NCBI GenBank assembly: GCA_943332105.1
Contig: CALQOD010000015.1
Coordinates: 1 to 39,551, forward strand
Source of the DNA: Chitinophaga pinensis
GTDB taxonomy: Bacteria > Bacteroidota > Bacteroidia > AKYH767-A > OLB10
Direction: 5' to 3'
Length of the DNA stretch: 39,551 nucleotides
Below the pieces are notes generated by a model. The model saw only the letters and a list, made by a program, of their open reading frames with translations, was not told where the DNA came from and ran no database searches. Positions within the stretch are counted from its first letter, which is position 1. Every line of letters begins with the position of its first letter. Position numbers and translations under genes: made by a program. This document shows, piece after piece, positions 2,767-32,743 of this stretch.

Positions 2767-4317
2767 ATGAAAAAACTATTTGCATTATTTCTTTTTACAA
2801 TTCTCCAATTATCTGTTTACGCACAACCATCAATCCAATGGCAGAAATGTTTAGGAGGGACAAGTAGTGAGGGAGCAACTTCAATTCAACAAACTACAGA
2901 TGGGGGATATATTCTGACTGGATGTACTAATTCAAATGATGGTGATGTAAGTGGAAAACATGGTGGTCAAGATGTTTGGGTTGTAAAATTAGATGTTACA
3001 GGAACTATTCAGTGGCATAAATGTTTAGGTGGAACATATTTTGACTTTGCAAGTTCAATACAACAAACCACAGACGGGGGGTATGTTTTGACAGGGTGTA
3101 CAAGCTCAAACACTGGAGATGTAAGTGGCAATCATGGATTACAAGATATTTGGGTTGTAAAGCTAAATAGTTCAGGAAGTATTCAGTGGCAGAAATGTTT
3201 AGGCGGAACAAGTGACGAAGGTGCAAACTCAATACAACAAACCACGGATGGAGGTTATGTTTTGACAGGGTATACTGAATCAAGTGATGGTGATGTGAGC
3301 GGTTTCCATGGTATAAGTTATGCTGATATTTGGGTTGTAAAATTGGATTGTTTAGGAACTATTCAGTGGCAGAAATGTTTAGGCGGAACAAATTTTGAAT
3401 ATGGTAGATATATCCAACAAACTTCGGATGGTGGATATATAATAGCAGGTCATACAACATCTAATGATGGAGATGTAATTGGAAATTATGGAGGAATGGA
3501 TTTTTGGGTTGTAAAAACAGATAGTTTAGGAGCTATTCAGTGGCAGAAATGTTTTGGTGGAACAAATGGTGAAGAGGCCTATGCTTTGAAACAAACCACC
3601 GATGGGGGATATACATTGACTGGATTTACTGCATCTGGCAATGGCAATGTTAGTGGGAATCACGGTGGTACTGATGTTTGGGTTGTGAAATTAGATAGTA
3701 TAGGAACTATTCAGTGGCAGAAATGTTTAGGCGGAACAAGTGACGAAGGTGCAAACTCAATACAACAAACAACGGATGGAGGTTATGTTTTGACAGGGTA
3801 TACAACCTCAAATAATGGAAATGTTAGTGGGAATCATGGTGGTGCTGATGTTTGGGTTGTAAAATTAGATAGTACAGGAACTATTCAGTGGCAGAAATGT
3901 CTCGGTGGAACAGACGCAAGCGGTGAAGGTGCAAGCTCAATACAACAAACTGCAGATGGAGGTTATATTCTGACGGGATATGCTACATCAAACGATGGAG
4001 ATGTGAGTGGAAATCATGGGGGTGTAGGTGATTATTGGGTTATTAAACTTTCTTCTACCGTTGGGATGAATGAGCTTTCTTCTATTACATCTTTAAATGT
4101 TTTCCCCAATCCCACCAACGATGAATTAAACATTCAAGTTGAGACCTCTGTCATTGGATCAACATATCAATTATCAGATATAATAGGAAGACCTATTACA
4201 ATAGGAATAATCACAGAAAAAGAATCAAGGATTTCACTTCAAGGTTTATCATCAGGAACATATCTATTTTCAATCGGTGATCAAATAAGAAAAACGTTGA
4301 AAGTGGTGAAGGAGTAA
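2767..4317 (+). CDS. Secreted seven-repeat protein with T9SS type A sorting domain
   Basis: The 516-residue product starts with a signal peptide (MKKLFALFLFTILQLSVYAQ). It then has seven near-identical units of about 58 residues, each with 'IQWQKCLGGT', 'QQTTDGGY', 'GDVSGNHGG' and 'WVVKLD' motifs. Seven such units could fold as a seven-bladed beta-propeller (inference). The last 80 or so residues (NVFPNPTNDEL to the end) form a T9SS type A C-terminal sorting domain, which directs export across the outer membrane and surface attachment in Bacteroidota. Repeats 3 and 6 share 94 of 95 bases, which suggests recent duplication or gene conversion. The gene lies between tRNA-Asn and repeated copies of the tRNA 3' end. 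Two strong terminators follow. The ligand is unknown. Confidence 0.9.
   Translation: MKKLFALFLFTILQLSVYAQPSIQWQKCLGGTSSEGATSIQQTTDGGYILTGCTNSNDGDVSGKHGGQDVWVVKLDVTGTIQWHKCLGGTYFDFASSIQQTTDGGYVLTGCTSSNTGDVSGNHGLQDIWVVKLNSSGSIQWQKCLGGTSDEGANSIQQTTDGGYVLTGYTESSDGDVSGFHGISYADIWVVKLDCLGTIQWQKCLGGTNFEYGRYIQQTSDGGYIIAGHTTSNDGDVIGNYGGMDFWVVKTDSLGAIQWQKCFGGTNGEEAYALKQTTDGGYTLTGFTASGNGNVSGNHGGTDVWVVKLDSIGTIQWQKCLGGTSDEGANSIQQTTDGGYVLTGYTTSNNGNVSGNHGGADVWVVKLDSTGTIQWQKCLGGTDASGEGASSIQQTADGGYILTGYATSNDGDVSGNHGGVGDYWVIKLSSTVGMNELSSITSLNVFPNPTNDELNIQVETSVIGSTYQLSDIIGRPITIGIITEKESRISLQGLSSGTYLFSIGDQIRKTLKVVKE
3181..3275 (+). repeat. Long intragenic direct repeat, copy A
   Basis: This 95-bp segment at the start of protein repeat 3 matches 3709-3803 at 94 of 95 positions. 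The offset is 528 bp, or three protein repeats. Confidence 0.9.
3709..3803 (+). repeat. Long intragenic direct repeat, copy B
   Basis: Partner of the repeat at 3181-3275. The single difference is CCACGG against CAACGG. It covers the start of protein repeat 6. Confidence 0.9.
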
Positions 4318-4581: not shown

Positions 4582-4989
4582 GTGAAGCCTTTTTAATTAC
4601 AGCCTGCAATTTGCCCCTTTTAACAATGAAATTCACTTGTTCAGGTAAAATAGCTTGATGAAAATGTTAGTTAATAGTTTATTTACTTAATAAATAGTAA
4701 TAAGACTAAACTAACCAACTATGATTGTTCTAAAGTCAATTATTAAAAAAGCGAAACAGCTGTTATCATTTAACTTGAATACAAGTCGTGCAGCAATAAC
4801 AATGCACCGACTACGCAATATGCAAATGAGTCGTAAAATAGTAAAGGCTTAGTCGTACCCAATATTTTTTATTGAATAAATTTTTTATCATCAGATTGGT
4901 AGTAAAGATGTCAAATTTATTTTTTTAGAATTAAATTATACTAAGAAAATTTGATTTGATGATGAAGAATAATTTAAGCATCTTGTTTA
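4582..4989. other. Intergenic region downstream of the tandem repeat
   Basis: This AT-rich region has no recognisable conserved gene. The only candidate is a short basic reading frame at 4721-4852. The region separates a plus-strand unit from the minus-strand FISUMP gene. Confidence 0.5.
4721..4852 (+). CDS. Possible 43-residue basic peptide
   Basis: ATG at 4721 opens 43 codons ending in TAG. The peptide (MIVLKSIIKKAKQLLSFNLN...) is rich in Lys and Arg, with an amphipathic N-terminal half and a basic C-terminal half (HRLRNMQMSRKIVKA). It has no signal peptide and no recognised family. It may be a real small protein, a gene fragment or chance. The ORF is short and the region is AT-rich, so support is weak. 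Confidence 0.2.
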   Translation: MIVLKSIIKKAKQLLSFNLNTSRAAITMHRLRNMQMSRKIVKA

Positions 4990-5667
4990 TTAATCTGCAA
5001 CGCATCTTATTGAGAACCCAGATGTTTTAAGATCATAATCTTTAATCAATAAAGAATCGTTGTTTTTGATATAATAATTAAATGCAGTATTAAAAGTTGA
5101 GTCGTCAGAACACCACCAACGCCCTTGAAGGCTTAGATTGGCAAAAACACCTGTGTATGTTCTAAATCCACTTCCTAAGGCAGAAAAATTATATAAATCG
5201 GAAGCTGCAATATTCGGCGACGCCCAGTTCGTAGTACCAATTTCTTTAAGAACACCTCCGTTTGAGTTAATAACTGAATTTAAGTCTATCCAATCCGAAT
5301 CATTTGCTACATGCGATCCAATTGGGCATATTGCTCTAGGATCAGTAATCGTTGCAAAATTGTATAAAAACCCATAAACACTACCCAATGCAGAATCGTT
5401 ATTATAAAAACAAAATGAGCCTACACTCGAATTTTGCCATTGTGTCCCAGATACAACGTACATAATACTATCTCCGTTATTGAATTTTTTAGTTTTTAAA
5501 TTAGTAGAAAACCAACATTTATTTCCAATAGTAACTGTTGAATAGCTATTACCAGAACCATCTATAAAGGAGGAGTTACTACAAGAGTTTAAATTGATTA
5601 TTTTATCATTTTCTTTTTTACATGAATAGAATAAAATAAAAATAATTGATAGGAAGAAATATCTCAT
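4990..5667 (-). CDS. FISUMP-domain lipoprotein
   Basis: This 225-residue product begins with a lipoprotein signal (MRYFFLSIIFILFYSC, lipobox ending at C16), so it should be anchored to a membrane by a lipid. Residues from about 35 on match the FISUMP pattern (Fibrobacter succinogenes major paralogous domain): 'DGSGNSYSTVTIGNKCWFSTNLKT', then 'YGFLYNFA', 'CPIGSHVANDSDW', 'LGSGFRT', 'GRWWCSDD' and 'GFSIRCV'. The two conserved W/C-rich blocks are present and the length is typical. The biochemical role of FISUMP proteins is not established. It lies 85 nt downstream of the adhesin gene on the same strand and may be the last gene of that operon. Confidence 0.85.
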   Translation of the reverse strand: MRYFFLSIIFILFYSCKKENDKIINLNSCSNSSFIDGSGNSYSTVTIGNKCWFSTNLKTKKFNNGDSIMYVVSGTQWQNSSVGSFCFYNNDSALGSVYGFLYNFATITDPRAICPIGSHVANDSDWIDLNSVINSNGGVLKEIGTTNWASPNIAASDLYNFSALGSGFRTYTGVFANLSLQGRWWCSDDSTFNTAFNYYIKNNDSLLIKDYDLKTSGFSIRCVAD

Positions 5668-5752
5668 ATTAATAATTTGACTTAAAAGTCTAAAAATTAA
5701 ACTTAGAAATAGTAGATTTAATATTAAAATATTAACAAAAAACTGTTTATAA

Positions 5753-8608
5753 TTATCTAACTAGAGAAAAAAATCCTTTAAAATTATGAGATTCATTGCA
5801 CAGGTCTACTGCTGAAAATAAATAAATGTATATTCCTTCAGGAGAATCGGAACCTTTATAAGTCCCATCCCATCCTTCATTTAATGAGTTGCTTTCAAAA
5901 ACTTTATCTCCCCATCGGTTATAAATTGTTAAAGTTGCTTCTTTTGCTGAAAGTAAGACTGGATAAAAAACTTCATTCTTTAAATCTTCATTGGGGGTAA
6001 ATGCATTTGGTGTCCAAGCAGAAAACTTATTATTTACGTATATATTTCGTGTCAAAGAATCAACACATCCAAATTCGGAAGTACCAATTAGTTTTATTTG
6101 ATAATCTCCATAAATTAAAAAATCATAGGAGGGTGAAAATTCTTTTGAGGGAAATTTATCTCCAATTTGCCAAACAAAACTTGAAGCGCCCGATGATAAA
6201 TTAATAAATTCAATGTTTGATGAGAATTCACAAGGTATTGGATTAGAAACAAAATCTATGATTGGTGTCGGTTCAATAAAAACAGAGGCAGCTAAGTTTA
6301 ATGGTGTAAAACAAGCTGGGTTACTGGATGAAGTAACACCTGTTAAAATATAATTAACGGTATCAACTGTTGCAGTATTACACAATAGATTTAAACTACC
6401 ATTAACACTTTGTGCTTGAAAAGGAATATTGTCAATTAAATAATCAAAGGTGTATGGGTCAAATCCATTATAACCATTTAATACTACCTCTGCAGGGTTG
6501 TCATTAATACATACAGTGGGTTGTGATCTAATAGTTGCGGTCGGGGTTGGTTTTACGTTTATTACAGCACTTGAATTAACAAGGTTTTTACAAACAGGAT
6601 TTGAGCTACCAGTAACTTCAATTAAATTATAAGTGAAAATTCCAGTATCTGAAGTAGGGATACTAATTGTGTTACTATTTATAGGTATATTTAAATAATT
6701 TAAAGGCCCATTGTTTAAATTATAAGCAATAGAATATGATGGGTTATTCCCACTACAATTTATTGTTAATACAGGGGAAACACTATTTTGACAGATGCTA
6801 ACACTTCCTGTTATACTAGCAACAGGTAAATCAATTACCTCAACTTGCGTGCTTAAATTAAGATTTACACCACATGATGGATTTCCACTGTCATAAATAG
6901 ATATTAAATTATAATTATAAACACCAGCTTGGTTACTTGAACAATTAACAGAAAAAGTGTTCCCATTTGTTATAACCGATGGTGAAACTATACCATCTAC
7001 TGAATAAGATATTAAATAAGGTGCTATTCCGCCTATTCCGGTAAAAGTAACAATCGGCTGTGGGTCATTTTGACAAATTTTAATTGATGGACTAATTAAT
7101 GCACTAGGCAATGGTCTGATAATTACTGTATCAATTTGGTTAAGTATCCTTTTACAGTTTGGTGATGAAAGACTCTCAACACTAATTAATTTATATAAAA
7201 ATACACCTGGTAAATTTGTAGGAACAGAAATGCTAGCGACATTGTTAGTAGAGTTAATTGTCTGTATTGAACCTCCGTTAATATTATATGTGAACAAATA
7301 CGGCCCGATTGAACCGCTTCCTGTAATATCAATTATAGGTGAAGGTGAATTTTGACAATATGTTCCTCCACCAGAAATTTGGGCATTCGGTAATTCAATT
7401 ACGTTTATTATTGATGTGCCGAATGCTGAATTTGTACATGCAGGAATAGAACCACTAGTCACACTCAACAAAGAAATTGTATAAGTTCCAGGAACTTGCG
7501 TTGAAAGAGGTAATAAAACAGTGTTACTATTAGAAGTAGTTGTAATTGTTTGCGATGGACCACCATTTATAATATATGTAAATTGGTATGGAGGAGTACT
7601 ATTAGTCCCTGTAAATTCTACAGAAGGTGGTGGATCATTTTCACAAACAGTAAATGAATAATTAATTGACGCTAAAGGCTTAGGTAAGACTAACACGTTA
7701 CTTAAACCAAATACCTGGTTAGGACAACTAGGGAGACTACCACCTGATACATTTATTAAATTATATAATAGATTTCCCGGATTGTTTGTAGATACAGGTA
7801 CATCTACATAAGTATTACTTCCTGTAGTAGTAATGCTTTGCGGATTACCATTATTAATTGTATAAGTAAACGTATAAGGTGTTATATTCCCTGAACCTGT
7901 GAATCTAACAAAAACATTATTGTCATTTTCACAAACAGTAGTAGAGCCACTTAAAGAAGCAGAAGGATAATCATAAACATTAATTTGATAATTCGTTGTT
8001 GCAGATGTAGGACAGATATTTGATGTTCCGCTAAGAATACTATCAATAATAAAATTATAAACACCTACTATGGCTGGATTAAAATTCACAGACGCGTTAT
8101 TGGAATTTATATTAATAGGAGCTTGTGGAACACCATCAATATTGTAGTATATAGTATATGGCGCTAAATTAACGCCAGTTGAAACACTAATATTTATATT
8201 TAAAAGAAAGGTGGGATCACCTACACAAGCACTTATTGGACCACTAAATAATCCAGTAATATTTGGACCTTGATTGACAATTATTTGTTGTGATCCAGTA
8301 CATACCTTATTAGGAACGCAACTACTAGCATCATATATTAAATAAACTGTGTAAGTATTGTTGCAATTATAGGTATGACATACTGTATTGGCGCCTTGAA
8401 TTGTAGTTACTGGTGGTGTCCCATCGCCAAAATCCCAAGTGCAAACACCAGAAGATCCACAATCATTAGAGGTTGTATTCGTAAAAAAATAACAATTATT
8501 AGTAGGATTGTAAGTAACATTAAAACTAGCTGCACCCCTACATCCATCCGATATCGCATAATTACTATATAGGATTGCAAATAATAAGATTACTAATCTA
8601 TGTTTCAT
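5753..8608 (-). CDS. SprB-like multi-repeat adhesin with gliding-motility-type (type B) T9SS sorting domain
   Basis: The 951-residue product starts with a signal peptide (MKHRLVILLFAILYSNYAIS). A PKD-like domain follows (about 28-115, 'CTWDFGDGTPP'). Then come seven Ig-like units of about 88 residues, each opening with a 'xxCxND..P.V.FTG' strand, continuing with 'PY.FxYxING', and carrying a second Cys near its end ('PxC'). Each unit could hold its own disulfide. A second PKD-like domain (about 785-860, 'SFVWQIGD') precedes a CHU_C gliding-motility-associated C-terminal domain (about 861-951, 'TPNAFTPNEDLKNEVF', 'IYNRWGDKVFES', 'GWDGTYKG', 'GIYIYLF'). CHU_C domains direct T9SS export of large mobile adhesins such as SprB. 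Its start overlaps the preceding gene's stop by 4 nt (ATGA). A role in adhesion or gliding is inferred. Confidence 0.92.
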   Translation of the reverse strand: MKHRLVILLFAILYSNYAISDGCRGAASFNVTYNPTNNCYFFTNTTSNDCGSSGVCTWDFGDGTPPVTTIQGANTVCHTYNCNNTYTVYLIYDASSCVPNKVCTGSQQIIVNQGPNITGLFSGPISACVGDPTFLLNINISVSTGVNLAPYTIYYNIDGVPQAPININSNNASVNFNPAIVGVYNFIIDSILSGTSNICPTSATTNYQINVYDYPSASLSGSTTVCENDNNVFVRFTGSGNITPYTFTYTINNGNPQSITTTGSNTYVDVPVSTNNPGNLLYNLINVSGGSLPSCPNQVFGLSNVLVLPKPLASINYSFTVCENDPPPSVEFTGTNSTPPYQFTYIINGGPSQTITTTSNSNTVLLPLSTQVPGTYTISLLSVTSGSIPACTNSAFGTSIINVIELPNAQISGGGTYCQNSPSPIIDITGSGSIGPYLFTYNINGGSIQTINSTNNVASISVPTNLPGVFLYKLISVESLSSPNCKRILNQIDTVIIRPLPSALISPSIKICQNDPQPIVTFTGIGGIAPYLISYSVDGIVSPSVITNGNTFSVNCSSNQAGVYNYNLISIYDSGNPSCGVNLNLSTQVEVIDLPVASITGSVSICQNSVSPVLTINCSGNNPSYSIAYNLNNGPLNYLNIPINSNTISIPTSDTGIFTYNLIEVTGSSNPVCKNLVNSSAVINVKPTPTATIRSQPTVCINDNPAEVVLNGYNGFDPYTFDYLIDNIPFQAQSVNGSLNLLCNTATVDTVNYILTGVTSSSNPACFTPLNLAASVFIEPTPIIDFVSNPIPCEFSSNIEFINLSSGASSFVWQIGDKFPSKEFSPSYDFLIYGDYQIKLIGTSEFGCVDSLTRNIYVNNKFSAWTPNAFTPNEDLKNEVFYPVLLSAKEATLTIYNRWGDKVFESNSLNEGWDGTYKGSDSPEGIYIYLFSAVDLCNESHNFKGFFSLVR

Positions 8609-9924
8609 TTGTCTAACAATATTAACTTGTTATAATATGATTCACATTTTAATTCCCCAACTCCTTTATTAATGGTAGAAACACCAAACCTTGTAGTGAT
8701 AGTAACCTTTTTAATATTCATTAAATTTAAAGTAATTGGAGAAGATTTATTAATAATTGTCTTATCCCATTCAATTCCTTTATAAAAGCGCAAATAATTA
8801 TTGTATTTATTGCTTGGGTTAATTATTGTTCCAATGGAATAATAATTAAAATAACTACTAAGTTTTTCTATTTTATCGTTACCCCATGTTTGAATTTGAT
8901 ATGTTTTGTCAATCAAATTAAATTTGATAGTTAAATTATTATAACTTAATTCTTTTTCTAAAATTGAAGAAGAAACATATAAGAAATTATTATAAAATTG
9001 AATGGAGGAAGGTAAAATGTTTGCTTTTAATTGCAGTTTATAACTTTCAAGTTGGTTTAATGACAAATCGAATGAGCTAATTACTCCTTCTGTAGAATTA
9101 TTTTTCTCCATAACACCAAATAGCCATATTTTATTATTATAAAATTCTAAATTGTGTATCATAAAACTGTTTCCATTTTCATTAAAATCTAAACACTTTT
9201 CAATCTTTCCTTTTAAATTTAGTTGGATTAATTTTGGTATGAGTACTTTATTTTTTTTGCCGTATGCCAAAATGTAATATTTATTACCTGTACTAATTAT
9301 TTTTATTGCACTATTATCAGTGTATCCTTCAAATTGGATTCCTTTTGACCATAATTTTTTACCATCTTTAGTGAAGGTAGCAATATACATGAATTGATCT
9401 TCATTAAACATAGTAAAATCAAAGCTTCCAATTGGCTCTCTTTTTTTTACAAAACCAGCAATAGTTATTGTGTTATCATTATTTTCAACAATTGTAAATG
9501 GATCAAGTTCATTACCGCCCTCATTAAAAATGAAAGAATTTAAAATTTTTCCATCTAAAAATTCAATAAAATAAAATGATTCTTGGTTATTTTTACTATA
9601 TCCTTCAGCAGCTAAAAGTATACTCCCAGTTTTACTTGGAATAATTTGATTAATTACATATTTATCATTACCTGTAAATCGATATGCTTTGATAAGATTC
9701 GCATATTCATCAGTATAAATAAGGCCGATGTCAGATGTTTCATTTTTAATATAAGAAACAGGAGTAATTGTTATCCCATTAAAATTAATTGAAGGTTTAG
9801 GATTAATATTATATGAATCAACTGAAGTGTAATTTTTTAATACGGATTGACAATTACAATCTGATTTAATTATTGTAATAAAAGAAATAAAGCTTATAGC
9901 AAAATATAGTGGTCTAATCTTCAT
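8605..9924 (-). CDS. Secreted protein of unknown function, coupled to adhesin and DoxX-like genes
   Basis: This 439-residue product has an N-terminal signal peptide (MKIRPLYFAISFISFITIIKS). The remainder is rich in beta-strand-like stretches, with turns such as 'GSILLAAEGYSKNNQ' and 'NNDNTITIAGFVKK' and a 'FTKDGKKLWSKGI' motif. This resembles secreted propeller proteins that report 'data points', but I see no regular repeat or T9SS sorting domain. I do not recognise the family. The start overlaps the stop of the DoxX-like gene (TAATG), and its stop overlaps the start of the adhesin gene. Translational coupling to both suggests a shared complex or pathway. It could be periplasmic or an outer-surface partner of the adhesin (inference). 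Confidence 0.75.
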   Translation of the reverse strand: MKIRPLYFAISFISFITIIKSDCNCQSVLKNYTSVDSYNINPKPSINFNGITITPVSYIKNETSDIGLIYTDEYANLIKAYRFTGNDKYVINQIIPSKTGSILLAAEGYSKNNQESFYFIEFLDGKILNSFIFNEGGNELDPFTIVENNDNTITIAGFVKKREPIGSFDFTMFNEDQFMYIATFTKDGKKLWSKGIQFEGYTDNSAIKIISTGNKYYILAYGKKNKVLIPKLIQLNLKGKIEKCLDFNENGNSFMIHNLEFYNNKIWLFGVMEKNNSTEGVISSFDLSLNQLESYKLQLKANILPSSIQFYNNFLYVSSSILEKELSYNNLTIKFNLIDKTYQIQTWGNDKIEKLSSYFNYYSIGTIINPSNKYNNYLRFYKGIEWDKTIINKSSPITLNLMNIKKVTITTRFGVSTINKGVGELKCESYYNKLILLDK

Positions 9925-10757
9925 TATTTTGATTTAATAAAATTGTACAAATTTAATCGAGAGGTTCTATCATCAATTACATTATAGAACGCGACCATTA
10001 AAAATCCCAAACGGAATATTCCATCAGGTAGAGCAATTATTGATGAAAGTATTACTATGAAAAAAATCCATAAACTTCCAATAGCGGCAACCGTTCTCGT
10101 ATATATACCTAACAAAAGCAAAATTCCTATTATAAGGTCAGATGTACCAGAATAAAAAATAAAATCATTAACATAATTGTCAGGAATAATTTGCGATGCA
10201 ATTTCAATATGGGCTTGATTAAATCCAAAAAAACCCAATGAGGCAAGACCATGAGCTATAAATGCAGAAGAGCTCGAAAATCTGATAAAGTTATAACGAA
10301 AATCTTTTTTATCCTTAAAGTGTAAAAACAATAATAATAAAATCCAAGATATCCTTCTTAAAATTTCTGCAATTGCTAAATATGAGCCAGTTTTTAATTG
10401 ATATAAGTTTAAAACGGCTACTATAACTAATAATAAATAAATGAATGCAAACCGATATGCAATTTTGTAGCACAGATTAAACAAAAACGAAAATCCAATT
10501 ATAATGTCGAAAACACCTGCAATTTGTAATATTTTATTAGAAGAAAACATCCCCCAATTAAAATTTTCGACTAATTTTAAATGCAAAGCTTGACTTGGAC
10601 TAAAACCAAGTGAAACTAATCCGTGCCCAATGAATACGAAAAATAAAACAATACGAATATACATATCAGTATTATTTAAAATAAGAACAAATCGTTCAGA
10701 TTTCATAAAATTAGGTAATATAAAACACGAATTTAAATAAAATAAACAAATATTCAA
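9924..10757 (-). CDS. DoxX-like membrane protein with tandem internal duplication
   Basis: The full frame gives 277 residues, but ATG codons at 10706 and 10664 are better starts. The start at 10664 (MYIRIVLFFVFIGHG) gives 246 residues and places the first membrane segment at the N-terminus. The protein is very hydrophobic with about eight predicted membrane helices. Its two halves align: 'FIGHGLVSLGF...FDIIIGFSFLF' in the first matches 'FIAHGLASLGF...SDLIIGILLLLG' in the second. Both halves resemble the small four-helix DoxX-like family, so this looks like a duplication and fusion. DoxX family proteins have varied roles and often unknown substrates. It is first in an operon with a secreted protein and a T9SS adhesin, an unusual partnership. 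Function unknown. Confidence 0.75.
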   Translation of the reverse strand: MNICLFYLNSCFILPNFMKSERFVLILNNTDMYIRIVLFFVFIGHGLVSLGFSPSQALHLKLVENFNWGMFSSNKILQIAGVFDIIIGFSFLFNLCYKIAYRFAFIYLLLVIVAVLNLYQLKTGSYLAIAEILRRISWILLLLFLHFKDKKDFRYNFIRFSSSSAFIAHGLASLGFFGFNQAHIEIASQIIPDNYVNDFIFYSGTSDLIIGILLLLGIYTRTVAAIGSLWIFFIVILSSIIALPDGIFRLGFLMVAFYNVIDDRTSRLNLYNFIKSK

Positions 10758-10905
10758 AATTGCCTACTTCATTTAAAAATATCGAAATAGTAGAATTATC
10801 TGTATATATTCTAAAAATGCATTATTTGCACTTTAAATAGAACTATTACTGCCACGAATTATCTAATTAATCTAATTCTTTATACAAGATATTTTTGACA
10901 AATAA

Positions 10906-11439
10906 TTACGATTTCTTTACGTACTTCGTCAGGATAACTATCTGTTGTCCGTCAATTTTTCCTTCTATCTGTTCCGTGTTATCGTGAACTAATTTAATAT
11001 TACGAACCGCCGTTCCAATTTTAGCTTGTACCGATGATCCTTTTACATCCAACGATTTAATCAACGTTACAGAATCACCTGCTAATAAAATAGCACCGTT
11101 GCAATCGCGATGCATATCGTTGCCATCACTCTCTAAATGATCGTTGGTTGCTTGTGCCCATGCTAATAAGTCTTCATCCAGATACATCATATCAATTGCA
11201 TCTGCCGCCCATGTTTCGTTTTTCAAACGATTCAACATTCTCCATGCTACTACCTGCACATTCGGGTTCTCACTCCACATGCTGTCTTTTAAGCAGGTCC
11301 AGTGATTAGCATCTAACTCTTCTTTCTTCTCAATTTGTTTGCAGCACTTTTCACAAACAGTAATTGATTTAGCGCCTTCTGGTGCAATAGCATATTGGGT
11401 CAGGTTCTCCGATGAACCACATAGTTCACAACTCATCAT
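10906..11439 (-). CDS. yjdM: PhnA/YjdM family zinc-ribbon protein
   Basis: The 177-residue product has an N-terminal zinc ribbon (C4-x2-C7 and C29-x2-C32, with C33) followed by the PhnA domain with its 'DCNGAILLAGDSVTLIKSLDVKG' core. This matches the PhnA (YjdM) family, at greater length because of a middle insert (about 45-110). Despite its name, PhnA is not shown to take part in phosphonate breakdown. The in vivo role is unclear and a cytoplasmic location is expected. Two ATG codons stand in tandem at the start (11439 and 11436) and either could be used. A TACCTTTG box on this strand (11459-11452) is a candidate -7 promoter element just upstream. The next gene upstream on this strand is the SDR, 43 nt away. 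Confidence 0.88.
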   Translation of the reverse strand: MMSCELCGSSENLTQYAIAPEGAKSITVCEKCCKQIEKKEELDANHWTCLKDSMWSENPNVQVVAWRMLNRLKNETWAADAIDMMYLDEDLLAWAQATNDHLESDGNDMHRDCNGAILLAGDSVTLIKSLDVKGSSVQAKIGTAVRNIKLVHDNTEQIEGKIDGQQIVILTKYVKKS

Positions 11440-12537: not shown

Positions 12538-12741
12538 ATGCGAAATACCACGAAGCTCAAACAGATTTTGCTAAAGTATGCAATTACTTTAACGATGGAT
12601 GATGATGGACTTTTTACTTTAGCAATTGATGATAAACACCAGCAAGAAGAAAATGTTTTTTTCGAAGGAAAGAGTTATGCAATTGTAGTGGATAAAGCCC
12701 ATCGATACATGAACAAGAAAATAAAATCCGATTTACAATGA
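12538..12741 (+). CDS. Small protein coupled to the PrsW protease gene
   Basis: This 67-residue product (MRNTTKLKQILLKYAITLTM...) has no signal peptide and no recognised domain. It has a basic start, an acidic middle (DDDGLF, DDKHQQEE) and a basic tail (HRYMNKKIKS). Its last 4 nt overlap the start of the PrsW gene (ATGA), implying translational coupling. Such a partner could be a substrate or regulator of the protease (inference). The 5' spacer to the divergent SDR gene is only 36 bp. Confidence 0.65.
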   Translation: MRNTTKLKQILLKYAITLTMDDDGLFTLAIDDKHQQEENVFFEGKSYAIVVDKAHRYMNKKIKSDLQ

Positions 12742-13439
12742 ATCATTATTTAACGCTTTTGGGTTTAGCAATTGCACCAGGTTTAGCAATTGCCTATTAT
12801 GTTTTCTGGCAAGACAAATACGATCGTGAACCATTATCGTTAATCGTTAAATCGTTCTTTTTAGGAGTAGCTAGTATTATTCCTGCTATCATTCTGGAAT
12901 TAATGTTTAAAGAAACAGGACTATCAGCTTCATCAACTAATATCCTCGAAGGACTAATAGCATGTATTGTTGGAATTGGTTTGATGGAAGAAGGATCGAA
13001 ATATTTTTTCACGCGACGATTCGCTTATCGTTCGGAACATTTCAATGAACCGTTTGATGGAATCACCTATTCAGTAATGGTGAGTATGGGATTTGCAACA
13101 GCAGAAAATATCATGTATGTAATGCAAAATGGTATGACCGTCGCTTTTCTTCGGATGTTTACAGCAGTCCCGGCACATGCATTTTTTGCAGTTATCATCG
13201 GATATTTTTTAGGGATACAAAAGTATTATGATAAAAGAGGATTTGGTACTATTGGTTTGATAGCCGCTTCTGTATTACACGGACTCTATGATTTCTTTAT
13301 TTTTAATGGAGATAACTTTGGGATTTATGGAGGTGCATTAGCATCGTTGATTGTTGGATATTATGTTTCTAAAAAAGCAATAATGCTACATCAACAAGAC
13401 TCGCCCTTTAAACCTGATGAAAGTCAAACAGGGTTTTAA
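12738..13439 (+). CDS. prsW: PrsW-family intramembrane metalloprotease
   Basis: The 233-residue protein has about seven or eight membrane segments and the PrsW motifs: E84-E85-xx-K88, F119...E123-N124, H147 in 'PAHAFF' and H181-xxx-D185 in 'LHGLYD'. In Bacillus, PrsW cleaves the anti-sigma factor RsiW. Bacteroidota homologues are common and their substrates mostly unknown. Length is typical. All expected catalytic and metal-binding positions are present, so it is likely active in the cytoplasmic membrane. It is translationally coupled to the 67-residue protein before it and is convergent with the T9SS protein that follows, with 2 nt between their ends. Confidence 0.88.
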   Translation: MNHYLTLLGLAIAPGLAIAYYVFWQDKYDREPLSLIVKSFFLGVASIIPAIILELMFKETGLSASSTNILEGLIACIVGIGLMEEGSKYFFTRRFAYRSEHFNEPFDGITYSVMVSMGFATAENIMYVMQNGMTVAFLRMFTAVPAHAFFAVIIGYFLGIQKYYDKRGFGTIGLIAASVLHGLYDFFIFNGDNFGIYGGALASLIVGYYVSKKAIMLHQQDSPFKPDESQTGF

Positions 13440-13441
13440 AT

Positions 13442-14854
13442 TTATTTCTCAATAATAAATTTCCTCGAGAAGACTTTATTATCCGAATAAAGCACAATAA
13501 AATATAAACCATTAGGTAAGTAAGAAAGGTTTAAAGAGCAGTCGGAATTATTATAAAGATCACCCGAATAAACACATTGATTATTGGCATTGTAAATTTT
13601 AAAAGGAGCACCCTTTTTTGCAATCCCTTTTGCATTCAGGGTAAACACACCACTGTTAGGGTTAGGATATATGGTAAGGCTAAATGGATTATTAACTTCA
13701 GAAATACCAGTGGTAGAATAGACCATTCCTAAACTATCGGTTTTAACGATGTATAGGCCAGCAGGCGCCATAGTTGAAACACCACAGAAGATATATCCCT
13801 TGTCCTTTGTTTGCCGTACACAAGAGGAAGAGTTATTAAAGCTCGTCCCTCCTGCTTTAAATTGTCTTGACCATAGGGTGTCGCCCATGGCATTTGTTTT
13901 TATCAGGAAAACACTTCTTTCAAAATTAATATTTTCACATTCTCCCGTAATTATATATCCTCCATCATCTGTTTGTTGAAGAGATGTGGGCACAGGACGG
14001 TAATTAAAATTATAGGTTTTTGTCCAAGTGGTGTCTCCGTTACCATTGGTTTTTATTAAATAAATCTCATAATTTGTACTACCTTGAAGTACCGAAACCA
14101 TAGCAAAACCACTATCAGTCGTTTGAATTACTGCTTGTCCAACTTCTACATTTACTTTATCGTATCTTTTTGTCCATATCGTATCACCGAAGGCATCGGT
14201 TCTAATCATATAGATATCACTAGACGTAGTAGATACTGCAATTTCTCCTACAATAATGAAATTACCATCAAATGTTTTATTTATTCCTCTCGCATCGGAA
14301 CCAAATGGAGTAGGGTATACTTTATTGGAAAGTAAAACACCATTATTTAAATAGGATTGAAAAAAAATATCTGACGTTTGTGAGGCTTGGTTATAAAAAC
14401 CAGTTATTCCGTAAATGGCGCTGTTTATCGAAGCCATGCTATTACTTCCACATGGGTAAGTTAATCCTATACCGGCTGAAAATTCCTTTGTCCATATCGT
14501 GTCTCCATAAGGATTGAGTCGCAATAGTGAGGCTTTAATTGATGTAGCTGTTGAACCACAAGCTGAATTAACCATAAACCCACTGTCTGGTGTCTGTTCT
14601 ATATATCCTCCACCGCCTTGACCAGTGCCATCAATTATTTTATACCATTCCATCGAACCAAATGAATCTAGTTTTAATATTAAAGTACCACTAATTGTTC
14701 CTCTTCCACTTAAAACATATCCTCCGTCAAACGTTTCTTGAACACAAGTTGCTAATCCCATTCCCAACGTATCAATTACTTTTTCAAAGGTAATTTGTGC
14801 TTGTAAAGCAGTGCTTATGAAAACAAATAAAAAAGCTAGTATTGATTTATGCAT
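13442..14854 (-). CDS. Secreted repeat protein with T9SS type A sorting domain
   Basis: The 470-residue product has a signal peptide (MHKSILAFLFVFISTALQAQ). The body is made of about six or seven imperfect units of about 55 residues with 'QTxDxGyxxxG', 'IKTNxxGDTxWTK' motifs. This resembles the neighbouring seven-repeat protein but is diverged, and probably forms a beta-propeller. The C-terminus (about 395-470, 'LTIYPNPNSGVFTLNAKG' to 'YLPNGLYFIVLYSDNKVFSRKFIIEK') is a T9SS type A sorting domain. It should be exported to the surface. No enzyme motif is seen, and the ligand is unknown. It ends 2 nt from the PrsW gene, with no terminator visible between. Confidence 0.9.
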   Translation of the reverse strand: MHKSILAFLFVFISTALQAQITFEKVIDTLGMGLATCVQETFDGGYVLSGRGTISGTLILKLDSFGSMEWYKIIDGTGQGGGGYIEQTPDSGFMVNSACGSTATSIKASLLRLNPYGDTIWTKEFSAGIGLTYPCGSNSMASINSAIYGITGFYNQASQTSDIFFQSYLNNGVLLSNKVYPTPFGSDARGINKTFDGNFIIVGEIAVSTTSSDIYMIRTDAFGDTIWTKRYDKVNVEVGQAVIQTTDSGFAMVSVLQGSTNYEIYLIKTNGNGDTTWTKTYNFNYRPVPTSLQQTDDGGYIITGECENINFERSVFLIKTNAMGDTLWSRQFKAGGTSFNNSSSCVRQTKDKGYIFCGVSTMAPAGLYIVKTDSLGMVYSTTGISEVNNPFSLTIYPNPNSGVFTLNAKGIAKKGAPFKIYNANNQCVYSGDLYNNSDCSLNLSYLPNGLYFIVLYSDNKVFSRKFIIEK

Positions 14855-29170: not shown

Positions 29171-29278
29171 ATAAATTCAGTATTAAAAACCACCTAATTG
29201 TCAACGGAAGTTTATTAAAAACAAATAAAAACAAACTACAATGAAGAGTATAGTTTACCTAATTTTACTATCGTGAAA

Positions 29279-32200
29279 ATGGCTAGACTGAAAATATTCA
29301 TATTGATAATGATGTGCTATTATAATGGCCTTTCGCAGCACTCTGATTTTATTAAGAGTAAAAAAATTAATACAAATAATGATACAATTCAAATTGACAC
29401 TTTAAGTATTGTTCCTGGAAGTTTGATTTTTTTAGATGGTATAAATCACGCGGTAGACATCGATTATCATTCAGCAAAATTATTTTGGACAGATAGTACA
29501 AGAGACAAATCAGAAGTAGTCGAAATAGTTTATAAGGTTTATCCAATATTATTTGATAAAGAATTCTATAAGCGAAAACGCAACGTAGTTACTAATTTTT
29601 CTCAACCAGGGATACCTGATATTTACAAGGAAACGAACTATGAAAATAAAGAAAATATTTTTGGATTAGGAGGCTTTAATAAATCGGGTAGTATTGCAAG
29701 AGGGATTTCAATTGGCAACAATCAAGATCCAATAGTAAATAGTAGTTTGAACTTGCAGTTATCAGGAAAGTTATCCAATGGAATCGAAATAGTAGCTGCT
29801 ATTACAGATGATAATATTCCAATTCAAGCAGATGGCAATACACAGCAACTACAGGAGTTTGATAAAGTTTTTATTCAAATAAGTAACGAGAAAAATAAAG
29901 TAATTGTAGGAGATTTTGATGCAAGAAATCCCGAAGGATATTTTATGCGTTACATTAAAAAAGGACAAGGGATAAATTATCAATTTAAAGATACCTCTAT
30001 CGTAAGAAAAAATAGAAAGGAAACATTTGAGGTAGGGGTCGCAGCCGCAATTTCACGAGGTAAATTTGCACGACAAATAATTCCTGGTATAGAATCTAAC
30101 CAAGGGCCGTATCGGTTGCGCGGTGCTGAAAACGAGTTTTTTATAATAATACTATCGGGTACAGAAAAAGTTTTTTTGGACGGACAATTACTTGAGAGAG
30201 GTCAGGACCGCGACTATATTATCGATTACAATACAGCTGAAATAAAATTTACACCAAGAAGGATTATCAGCAAAGACTCAAGAATAATCGTAGAGTTTCA
30301 GTACAGCGATAAAAATTATTCTAGATCATTATTAACGGGTAAGGTAAATTATAACACATCAAAGATCTCGACGCGCATTAATATTTATTCTGAGCAAGAT
30401 AGTAAAAATCAACCTGTACTTCAGGATTTATCAGATCAACAAAAAACAATCTTAGCATCAGCAGGTGATAATTTGAATGATGCAATTTATTTAAATGCAG
30501 ATAGTGTATCATACAATGTAAATGAAATACTTTATGCGAAACGCGACACGATTGTATTAGGAATTACTTATAATCCAATATTTGTTTATTCTAATTCTTC
30601 AGATAGTGCGTTTTATCGTTTAGGGTTTACCAATGTTGGAAAAAACAAAGGCAATTATATTGCGCTTGATAATATTGCCAATGGGAGAGTCTATCAATGG
30701 GTAGCGCCAATTAATGGACTTCAGCAAGGCGATTATGAGCCCTACTCGGTATTAGTTAGTCCTAAAAAACGACAAATGCTTGTGGCTGGTATTGATTATA
30801 AAATTTCGGATAAAACAGCTATCGCATTTGAATCAGCATTTACAAAAAACGATATCAATCTGTTTTCCACCGGAGATAAATCTAACGATAAGGGATATGC
30901 GTTCAAATTTCAAATTGATGACAAAAGAAATATTGGTAGAGATAATAGTAAAGAATGGACTCTTTCAACTCAAATTCAATCAGAGGTTACCAACAGAAAT
31001 TTCACGCCAATTGAGAATTACCGTGCAGCAGAATTTACGAGAGACTGGAATACTTCAACATTTAATATAATCCAAAACGAAAATTTGATTTCGTCAAATA
31101 TTGGAATAATACATAGCGATGATTTTAAGTTATCGTATGGGTTAAAATATTATAAACGCGGTGCACAATATGAAGGACTTATGCATCAGTTAAGCACTTA
31201 TTATTCAGCGTTAGGCTGGAAAGTTAAAGGCGATGCATCACAATTAACTACAAGCGGATTGACATTTAACAGTAATTATTTCAAAACAAAAGATGTTATT
31301 CAAAAGAAAATAAAAAACTGGGCGCCTGGTGCTTCATTTGAAAAAGAGGTCAATCAATTAAAAAGTATAAGCAGTGATAGTTTATTATCAGGTTCTTTCT
31401 CATGGAAAACAGGTGAAGCATTTTTAATACACGGAGACACAACGAAATTTCCTGTTAAAGCGAGTATAAGTAGAAGATACGAGGATGGGCTTGTAAATGG
31501 TGGCTTTAATGCTGCTACAATTGCAGATATGGCTTCTTTCTCATTTTCAAATATTAAAAATAATCATCGGATTAGCTCATCAATTAACTATAGGAAATTA
31601 TTTATTGCGGATACTATTGTTACAAATTTAAAGGGTGATCAATCGTTTTCGGGCAGAATAGACTATACAACGAGTCTTTTCAAACGAGCTGTACAGTTTA
31701 ATTCTTATTATGAAGGAGGAACAGGAACGGAGCCTAAACGAATCTATTCCTATATTAAAGTAGCTGATGGTACTGGAGTATATACTTGGAATGACTATAA
31801 CGGAGATGGAATACCGCAATTAAATGAATTTGAAATATCGGAATTTAAAGACCAGGCAAATTATATTAGAATATTTTCTACTACTAATGAGTATACAAAA
31901 GTGGTTTTCAACCAATTTAATTTTTCCGTTAACATCAACCCTTCGAACGCGATAAAAGGAGAAAATAAATTTATTAATCGTATTGTAATACTTTCATCTC
32001 TAAAATTAGATAATAAAATAAGTGCTGATCAATTCAGATTTGATTATTTAAATCCAATTACAAACAACTATTCACTCGAGCAATTAATTGCAACGCAGTC
32101 TTCGGGTAAGCACACTTTATTTTTTAATCGATTAAATCCTAAAGGAGGAATTGAAATGAGTTACTTGCACAATGGAAGCAAACAGTTTTTAAGCAGCGGA

Positions 32201-32743
32201 ATAGAAAGCAGGACGAATAAAGTTTTTTCATCTACTATTAGAAAGTCGATAAAAAAAGAATTAAACCTTTTAGTGTCTGGCGAATTAGGTACGAAATCAT
32301 CAGTTGCAGAATCCTTCTTAAATAGAAATTATACAATTGAAAGCTGGACAATAACTCCGCAGGTAATATATCAACCAAATAGTACTTACAAAATACTTAC
32401 AACATTCAGAAACGCTGATAAGTCAAATAGAGCAATAAATAATAATCAGGAAGAAGCGAAGATTTATGATTTAAGTACTGAGTTTAAATATAGTTCTATT
32501 AAAAAGGGAATTATCGGAATCAAGATAAACTATTTAAAAATTAGTTATAACGGAGAAGCCAATTCGTCGTTGGCTTATGAGATGCTGGAAGGACTAAAAG
32601 AGGGAATTAATTTTAAATGGCAATTATCTATTCAAAGAAATCTAGGAAATAGTTTACAATTATCATTAAATTATGAAGGAAGAAAGCCGAGCAATTTTGG
32701 TATTATTCATACCGGTGGAATGCAACTGCGAGCGTTTTTTTAA
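29279..32743 (+). CDS. Giant outer-membrane protein (barrel-like), family not named
   Basis: I prefer ATG at 29279 (MARLKIFILIMMCYYNGLSQ) over the GTG two codons earlier. The signal peptide is followed by 1,134 residues. A block 'GGFNKSGSIARGISIGNNQD' then 'LNLQLSGKLSNGIEIVAAITDDNIPIQADGNTQQLQEFDKVFIQ' is characteristic of a family of large Bacteroidota/Chlorobi-group outer-membrane proteins. An alternating strand pattern fills the last 700 residues, and the protein ends in 'MQLRAFF', a typical C-terminal Phe of barrels. No catalytic motif is seen. It is probably a surface or secretion-related barrel but is functionally unassigned. Convergent with the coiled-coil gene, 4 nt apart. Confidence 0.8.
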   Translation: MARLKIFILIMMCYYNGLSQHSDFIKSKKINTNNDTIQIDTLSIVPGSLIFLDGINHAVDIDYHSAKLFWTDSTRDKSEVVEIVYKVYPILFDKEFYKRKRNVVTNFSQPGIPDIYKETNYENKENIFGLGGFNKSGSIARGISIGNNQDPIVNSSLNLQLSGKLSNGIEIVAAITDDNIPIQADGNTQQLQEFDKVFIQISNEKNKVIVGDFDARNPEGYFMRYIKKGQGINYQFKDTSIVRKNRKETFEVGVAAAISRGKFARQIIPGIESNQGPYRLRGAENEFFIIILSGTEKVFLDGQLLERGQDRDYIIDYNTAEIKFTPRRIISKDSRIIVEFQYSDKNYSRSLLTGKVNYNTSKISTRINIYSEQDSKNQPVLQDLSDQQKTILASAGDNLNDAIYLNADSVSYNVNEILYAKRDTIVLGITYNPIFVYSNSSDSAFYRLGFTNVGKNKGNYIALDNIANGRVYQWVAPINGLQQGDYEPYSVLVSPKKRQMLVAGIDYKISDKTAIAFESAFTKNDINLFSTGDKSNDKGYAFKFQIDDKRNIGRDNSKEWTLSTQIQSEVTNRNFTPIENYRAAEFTRDWNTSTFNIIQNENLISSNIGIIHSDDFKLSYGLKYYKRGAQYEGLMHQLSTYYSALGWKVKGDASQLTTSGLTFNSNYFKTKDVIQKKIKNWAPGASFEKEVNQLKSISSDSLLSGSFSWKTGEAFLIHGDTTKFPVKASISRRYEDGLVNGGFNAATIADMASFSFSNIKNNHRISSSINYRKLFIADTIVTNLKGDQSFSGRIDYTTSLFKRAVQFNSYYEGGTGTEPKRIYSYIKVADGTGVYTWNDYNGDGIPQLNEFEISEFKDQANYIRIFSTTNEYTKVVFNQFNFSVNINPSNAIKGENKFINRIVILSSLKLDNKISADQFRFDYLNPITNNYSLEQLIATQSSGKHTLFFNRLNPKGGIEMSYLHNGSKQFLSSGIESRTNKVFSSTIRKSIKKELNLLVSGELGTKSSVAESFLNRNYTIESWTITPQVIYQPNSTYKILTTFRNADKSNRAINNNQEEAKIYDLSTEFKYSSIKKGIIGIKINYLKISYNGEANSSLAYEMLEGLKEGINFKWQLSIQRNLGNSLQLSLNYEGRKPSNFGIIHTGGMQLRAFF

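Follow-up and report, generated by a model that had tools for sequence, protein, structure and literature searches.

The window analysed here, a stretch of 39,551 nucleotides from a Chitinophaga pinensis assembly (GCA_943332105.1, contig CALQOD010000015.1), carries three adjoining minus-strand genes that encode an inner-membrane protein with two DoxX halves (named DoxX2 in this work), a secreted beta-propeller protein and a type B adhesin of the type IX secretion system (T9SS; Table 1). Genome surveys identified the three genes as a rare set that recurs together in distantly related Bacteroidota. The gene overlaps that a previous sequence-only reading had described could be read directly: the DoxX2 stop and the propeller start share one base at 9924 (TAATG), and the propeller and adhesin genes share four (ATGA, 8605-8608). 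The FISUMP gene that it had placed on the same strand was also confirmed, by a profile match, 85 bases past the adhesin.

Table 1 Features of the DoxX2-propeller-adhesin locus in the window.
Feature	Position	Strand	Description
DoxX2	9924..10706	(-)	260 aa from ATG 10706; inner-membrane, two DoxX halves, eight predicted transmembrane helices
DoxX2, long open reading frame	9924-10757	(-)	277 aa from TTG 10757, 17 codons added
Secreted beta-propeller (predicted)	8605..9924	(-)	439 aa; hydrophobic leader by eye; no T9SS tail match
Type B T9SS adhesin	5753..8608	(-)	951 aa; leader, N-terminal PKD-type domain, repeats, CHU_C sorting domain
Adhesin N-terminal PKD-type domain, from Cys 23	8252..8542	(-)	used for alignment, column count and class search
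Adhesin type B C-terminal sorting domain (CHU_C)	5753..6013	(-)	residues about 866-951
FISUMP (Fib_succ_major) gene	4990..5667	(-)	profile match; within the seemingly transferred block
Block of the window species	4859..10906		borders from comparison with G004, G006 and G001

The ATG at 10706 is the more likely start of DoxX2, because homologs begin near it, and the TTG at 10757 is doubtful. Spacing between the propeller and adhesin genes ranged from -29 to +36 bases over 12 loci (starts picked by us), and that between the DoxX and propeller genes from -1 to about 195 bases over six same-strand loci, with one further locus divergent. Given this variation the DoxX-propeller overlap is not conserved, and the fixed protein proportion that the sequence-only reading had expected from translational coupling can thus be no more than inferred. 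Counts of regulatory patterns in the window were uninformative about a single transcript, namely 5 Bacteroidota-type promoter patterns against 4.2 expected, 45 sigma-70-like sites against 44.6 and 5 terminator-like sites against 2.6.

DoxX2 matched the Pfam families DoxX_3 (PF13781, 45.5 bits, cut-off 25) and DoxX (PF07681, 39.8 bits, cut-off 23.6), each over two stretches of the protein, and these matches extended to the members found in other genomes (DoxX_3 in 16/16, DoxX in 15/16, E<=1). Alignment of one half against the other gave a z of 6.9 against shuffles for the window protein and of 3.4-9.0 among the six of 16 members tried, and the AlphaFold2 (AF2) model contained eight long helices (pLDDT 91.5, pTM 0.88). 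Sequence and model therefore point to a real internal duplication, with a four-helix membrane unit present twice, in agreement with the earlier description of the protein. Across the 16 sequences 31 positions were invariant (gaps and unknown residues set aside); with an N-in topology assumed from positive charges, 8 of the 11 invariant charged or His residues fall on the predicted periplasmic half.

A sequence search of the PDB with DoxX2 gave no match at E<=10. Its top fold row was 3dby_M, a seemingly unrelated soluble helical protein of B. cereus (Z 11.5, 6% identity), and its N-terminal half resembled NACHO/TMEM35A (Z 9.7, 2.9 Å, 121 residues, 13% identity; Foldseek E 1.0, probability 0.96). 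Structures of vitamin K-dependent carboxylase (GGCX) made up 14 of the 17 best fold rows (Z 7.8-9.3, about 200 residues covering both halves), a likeness subject to the caveat that holds for helical bundles. DoxX2 might accordingly be imagined as a quinone-using membrane enzyme of GGCX-like fold that modifies exported proteins, as would fit the polar residues on its periplasmic half and a Foldseek probability of up to 0.69; this we consider very unlikely, given a Foldseek E of 0.49 at best, an rmsd of about 5-6 Å (4.9-5.9 Å in these rows), a soluble helical protein as top row and the lack of any carboxylase family among the Pfam matches of DoxX2. The likenesses to NACHO and to GGCX are leads only.

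The secreted protein had been called unrecognised and indeed gave no Pfam or NCBIfam match at E<=10, but its fold was recognisable. The AF2 model (pLDDT 70, pTM 0.72; residues 387-439 below 50 and unreliable) aligned with CylK at Z 31.9 (3.3 Å, 337 residues, 15% identity); the five CylK entries reached Z of about 31-32, and the next-best structure 25.5. One propeller was matched, over residues 30-387 of the 439, and the model thus indicates a single beta-propeller. CylK also gave a profile match to the propeller (1.9e-25), and among the 12 propellers aligned from different genomes DUF5122 matched three and Lepto_SBBP_lipo seven (E<=0.01). In eight of these 12 the C-terminus is a short Cys-containing tail, which the window protein lacks. 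No sorting-domain or T9SS tail match was found in the window propeller with Pfam and NCBIfam, hence the protein would be periplasmic or carried along.

The adhesin of the window matched CHU_C (59.6 bits, cut-off 27), PKD_4 (43 bits, cut-off 27) and TIGR04131 (51 bits, cut-off 35), with a hydrophobic leader before Cys 23 (by eye). The CHU_C domain of the adhesin, as first proposed, was thus upheld, and its designation as SprB-like applies to this sorting domain but not to the repeats, as Pfam detected no SprB repeat in the window protein; such repeats are present in six related adhesins. All 12 set adhesins have the N-terminal PKD-type domain in common (by construction of the alignment), with Cys 23 and Cys 103 in 12/12 and further Cys columns in 10, 8, 7 and 6 of 12. 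Their middles vary (PKD arrays, SprB repeats, other repeats), and the sorting domain was found in 10/10 uncut adhesins, those of G203 and G422 being cut by contig ends and excluded from this comparison. The gene directly downstream of the window adhesin is FISUMP and not a PorP_SprF gene; the same-strand genes downstream in G106, G204, G427 and G251 were profiled and contained no PorP_SprF, the remaining loci being surveyed by eye only. The window genome has eight PorP_SprF matches, of which the four listed lie on other contigs, and PorP/SprF genes are present in all 12 genomes bearing the propeller-adhesin pair, so that adhesin export can use a distant shuttle. On the same strand downstream of the G427 adhesin lies a gene (L024 3-1445) for a TMEM260-like protein O-mannosyl-transferase (231.8 bits), a possible glycosylation partner.

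Searches with the query P0001 found matches in 7 of 199 relatives, a count that takes in its own genome and one weak match; the six other genomes of the genus gave none. A DoxX2 profile scan of a named genome collection gave 13 loci, and in the class sample DoxX2 was found in 9/395 genomes at E<=1e-60 and in 16/395 at E<=0.001; both scans combined yielded 16 genomes with the long DoxX form. The phylum sample contained DoxX2 in one of 262 genomes, that of the window, and the 20 others listed were all of the same class, which says little on other classes.

The DoxX, propeller and adhesin genes follow one another on one strand in six genomes, namely the window's, G106 (JACZWC010000017.1), G203 (adhesin cut by the contig end), G251 (JAHEYK010000069.1), G204 and G198 (JALWYU010000111.1). 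A seventh linked genome, G427 (JAHCHW010000004.1), has the DoxX gene divergent from the adjoining propeller-adhesin pair. DoxX stands alone in the remaining 9/16 genomes. A propeller profile built from the seven linked loci only, and run on these nine genomes and on five linked ones, recovered near-full-length propellers away from DoxX in G421 (1.4e-144), G425 (5.9e-144), G424 (5.0e-90) and G422 (7.4e-62), a propeller cut by the contig end in G423 (1.8e-56) and a partial, weak best match in G426 (positions 14-349, 1.2e-27, below the generic matches of other genomes). The membership of G426 rests on its neighbouring adhesin because its propeller match is weaker than generic ones. Where the propeller was uncut (five genomes), it is followed directly by a gene for an adhesin with the common N-terminal domain; four of these adhesins carry the sorting domain, and the fifth (G422) is cut by the contig end. 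The pair is therefore adjacent to DoxX2 in 7 of the 16 genomes, elsewhere in 5, represented by a propeller fragment in 1 and was not found in 3; the refuting outcome named by the sequence-only reading, a gene order not conserved elsewhere, was not observed. FISUMP was not seen next to the other set adhesins in the loci inspected and was rejected as a member of the set.

That the three genes are chance neighbours has some initial appeal, since DoxX proteins, SBBP propellers and CHU_C adhesins are all widespread among Bacteroidota (the adhesin was matched in 97/100 genomes, and generic propellers are plentiful). Random meeting is nevertheless contradicted by the recurrence of the set, in which a rare, long DoxX stands beside the pair in 7/16 genomes with the same adhesin N-terminus; we rejected it as hardly credible.

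The association was also searched from the side of the pair. With a 12-row propeller profile, only the window's genome (G000), G106, G198, G203, G204 and G251 reached E<=1e-100 among 395 class genomes, the next match being at 4.9e-79. The same six led 385 genomes with a 12-row adhesin N-terminus profile (E<=2.5e-20), followed at 4.5e-17 by what were mostly partial PKD matches. All six pair genomes of the class sample carry DoxX2, and no class-sample genome had the pair without DoxX2 at the cut-offs used (Fisher test, 6/9 DoxX2 genomes vs 0/386, p 1.7e-11); because those six genomes sit in the profiles, this test and the gaps in E-value are partly in-sample. Among 24 lower-ranking propeller loci, the 13 inspected by eye showed type A-like tails in most cases, and a separate CHU_C adhesin with the common N-terminus was seen within about 1.5 kb of none of them. 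The propeller of G196 is part of a 908-aa open frame that also has PKD and WDG motifs. Some PKD match at E<=1e-6 occurs in 365/385 genomes; L132, L133, L135, L138 and L153, among the best non-member N-terminal matches, look like ordinary PKD proteins, the best control (L133) being a small one.

Together with FISUMP, the trio forms a block of ~6.05 kb that is missing at the matching site in three sister species (G004, G006 and G001). The PhnA-like protein just upstream is 98-99% identical in the sisters G001, G002 and G006 and 86% identical in G004. Counterparts of window positions 10907 and 4858 are one base apart in G004, and 58 and 57 bases replace 6109 of the window (4798-10906) in G001 and G006, respectively. 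G002 has other genes at this site, among them, downstream of the PhnA-like gene, one for a 1294-aa protein with a PKD-like motif (L165 4623-8507) and one for a 134-aa protein resembling an ordinary short DoxX by eye (L165 12411-12815). The comparison covers G001, G002, G004, G005 and G006; the downstream flank of G005 does not match. The longest words common to the block borders were one 10-base and two 9-base inverted matches, with no direct repeat of 9 or more bases; neither a recombinase nor a long repeat was found at the block ends, and the block holds no open reading frame of 80 aa or more beyond the four named genes. Plasmid carriage was considered and discarded, P0001 having no match in 72,556 plasmid records (a collection that may omit records close to the window's genome). 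Gain of the block in the window lineage is the simplest reading of these borders, the alternative being its loss in several sister species. The three genes can apparently be transferred as a block, and seem to have been acquired in this way here.

Because the three genes form a recurrent set, a dedicated inner-membrane partner of the adhesin is a reasonable reading. We tentatively favour an account in which the three genes make up one functional set and DoxX2, as a dedicated factor in the inner membrane, matures or assembles the exported propeller-adhesin pair, with the chemistry left open; DoxX2 would in this way probably help the adhesin to arrive or function on the cell surface. Besides the recurrence, this account draws on the close spacing of the propeller and adhesin genes, on the charged and His invariants of the predicted periplasmic half, on the likeness of the N-terminal half to the assembly factor NACHO and on the PorP/SprF genes of all 12 pair genomes. 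The adhesin and the propeller would enter the periplasm via Sec, and DoxX2 would be an inner-membrane protein whose conserved His, Arg and Glu residues mostly face the periplasm, where it could mature or assemble the pair by folding, by redox or other modification, or by keeping the adhesin N-terminal domain pressed to the propeller. The T9SS would then carry the adhesin out by way of a PorP/SprF shuttle whose gene lies at another locus; the propeller might stay with the adhesin as a partner or act as a periplasmic chaperone. Speaking more speculatively, the locus could be a mobile three-part system in which the duplicated DoxX serves as a dedicated inner-membrane enzyme or chaperone that prepares the type B adhesin and the propeller in the periplasm before export, a T9SS maturation step not yet described. 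The parts belong to known families; the combination of DoxX, propeller and adhesin is undescribed as far as searches of openly licensed literature show. The sequence-only reading knew of no well-described precedent for a dedicated inner-membrane partner of a T9SS adhesin, and these searches yielded none.

Several results weigh against this account or parts of it. The three exceptional genomes (G101, G137 and G168) gave only partial propeller matches (best 2.1e-36), with no such adhesin adjoining at the seven loci inspected, and only generic matches to the adhesin N-terminal profile; because of these genomes, DoxX2 cannot be regarded as tied strictly to an adhesin of this kind. The propeller profile was unspecific, with generic matches in the same three genomes and in the window genome (1.5e-36) outscoring that of G426, and by sequence the set propellers are hard to tell from ordinary ones. 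When each member was left out in turn and single-domain scores were compared, 7/12 propellers beat the best control (not those of G000, G204, G422, G426 and G198, the last scoring 4.9 bits), as did 9/12 adhesin N-termini (not G106, G251 and G198). As only part of the members was recovered, a divergent pair in a DoxX2-less genome could have been missed. Base composition supports a foreign origin for only two of the four block genes: GC content was 0.245 for the propeller and 0.280 for DoxX2, both under the 25 other genes measured, and 0.324 for the adhesin and 0.319 for FISUMP, below the flanks (0.38-0.40) but about as low as some other genes in the window go (down to 0.320). All DoxX2 invariants taken together divided 21 to 10 between the periplasmic and the other half (p 0.055), and the Z of NACHO, exceeded by that of 3dby_M, may reflect a common helix arrangement.

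Co-variation belongs with these points. Distance correlations over the 12 genomes were 0.74 for DoxX and propeller, 0.63 for DoxX and adhesin N-terminus and 0.89 for propeller and N-terminus (0.76, 0.63 and 0.92 over the 10 genomes with uncut adhesins). A whole RpoB marker was available from 11/16 genomes, so that comparison with it covers 8 of the 12 pair genomes; in these the DoxX-propeller correlation was 0.97, vs 0.78 and 0.83 with RpoB. Without the near-identical G421 and G425, the three values dropped to 0.55, 0.12 and 0.49, and co-variation was for this reason given little weight; its support for co-evolution of the set is thin. Moreover, the DoxX of G426 groups with those of G421, G425 and G427, and its propeller does not. 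The fall of the DoxX-adhesin correlation to 0.12 speaks for a rival account in which the propeller-adhesin pair alone is the functional unit and DoxX2, with an unrelated envelope function, travels with it because both suit the same niche or move together. Such co-travelling also accommodates the five genomes in which DoxX2 is apart from the pair (and a sixth with a cut propeller), the divergent gene of G427 and the three DoxX2 genomes without a detected pair. We regard it as somewhat unlikely, since all six pairs of the class sample lie in genomes with DoxX2, which is present in only 9/395.

Another possibility is that DoxX2 is a redox factor giving oxidising power for disulfides in the adhesin N-terminal domain and the propeller tail. 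The conserved Cys columns of that domain and the C-terminal Cys of 8/12 propellers are consistent with such a role; for M. tuberculosis, joint action of a DoxX protein with SodA and the thiol-oxidoreductase SseA has been proposed (PMC10943396), and disulfide tethers matter in gliding and T9SS (PMC12635249). The 16 DoxX2 sequences have no invariant Cys, a finding that weakens the case for thiol oxidation and also tells against the favoured account; a C-terminal Arg-Cys-His motif has its Cys column in 10/16 and is missing from the window copy. In addition, one propeller (G422) contains no Cys, no thioredoxin-like partner was noticed in the loci by eye, and the MauE model matched 1/16 members at E 0.47. 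We consider this redox role unlikely, and retain a dedicated maturation or assembly factor as our working interpretation.

Further genes were recorded around DoxX2 and in the window. The three DoxX2 genomes without the pair have a common neighbourhood (L033, L034, L036), with an M28-peptidase-like gene (by eye) and housekeeping-looking genes. Divergently upstream of DoxX2, G106 (L010 6374-7981) and G203 (L053 4992-6581) have similar genes that by eye look FAD-oxidoreductase-like, and in G106 the genes that follow resemble those of pigment or fatty-acid synthesis. Three more proteins of the window (2767-4314, 13445-14854 and 33906-36899) have T9SS type A tails (Por_Secre_tail), and the first two also match the propeller profile (1.5e-36 and 5.2e-26). 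A PrsW-type intramembrane protease gene lies at 12738-13436, and a 1156-aa open frame with a GTG start at 29273-32740 gave no Pfam match at E<=0.001.

Type B T9SS adhesins function in gliding and attachment, and the excerpts available to us name outer-membrane shuttles and cell-wall anchors as their accessory factors. If conserved, a partner in the inner membrane would point to a periplasmic maturation step and to a testable role for one DoxX group. If the set does move as a block, this would also let Bacteroidota take up a new surface adhesin and its helpers at once.

The set shares features with several known systems and departs from each. Thiol oxidases of the DsbB/VKOR type have conserved redox cysteines in a membrane protein, and DoxX2 is unlike them in its lack of an invariant Cys. 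DoxX2 belongs, above cut-off, to the same Pfam families as other DoxX and DoxX_3 proteins including the mycobacterial DoxX, from which it differs in its duplicated eight-helix form, in its own invariants and in having an adhesin and a propeller as partners rather than SodA and SseA. NACHO/TMEM35A, a receptor assembly factor according to the title of entry 9h9e, may have a fold like that of the N-terminal half of DoxX2, but is a human protein of 133 residues with 13% identity to it. CylK, compared by fold and by profile match, resembles the propeller in both, and is a larger, alkylating enzyme. PorZ, likewise a beta-propeller protein tied to the T9SS, contains two propellers followed by a CTD-type domain at its C-terminus and undergoes export itself (PMC5121618), whereas the set protein has one predicted propeller and no CTD match.

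Further parallels lie among the adhesins. In F. johnsoniae, type B adhesins exit via PorP/SprF-like shuttles that are commonly encoded directly downstream, and the accessory genes of their operons encode such shuttles and PorE-like proteins (PMC12618676, PMC9143113). Orphan type B substrates have no neighbouring sprF-like gene, three of them in F. johnsoniae sharing one shuttle (PMC12618676); the set adhesin resembles these in being a type B adhesin without such a neighbour, and differs in its companions, no DoxX or propeller partner being mentioned in the excerpts of that source. Like the SprB-SprF operons of F. johnsoniae, the set groups an adhesin that bears a type B sorting domain with accessory genes in one putative operon, and export by the T9SS is expected; it is set apart from them by partners of its own, a propeller and a DoxX protein, with FISUMP downstream in the window.

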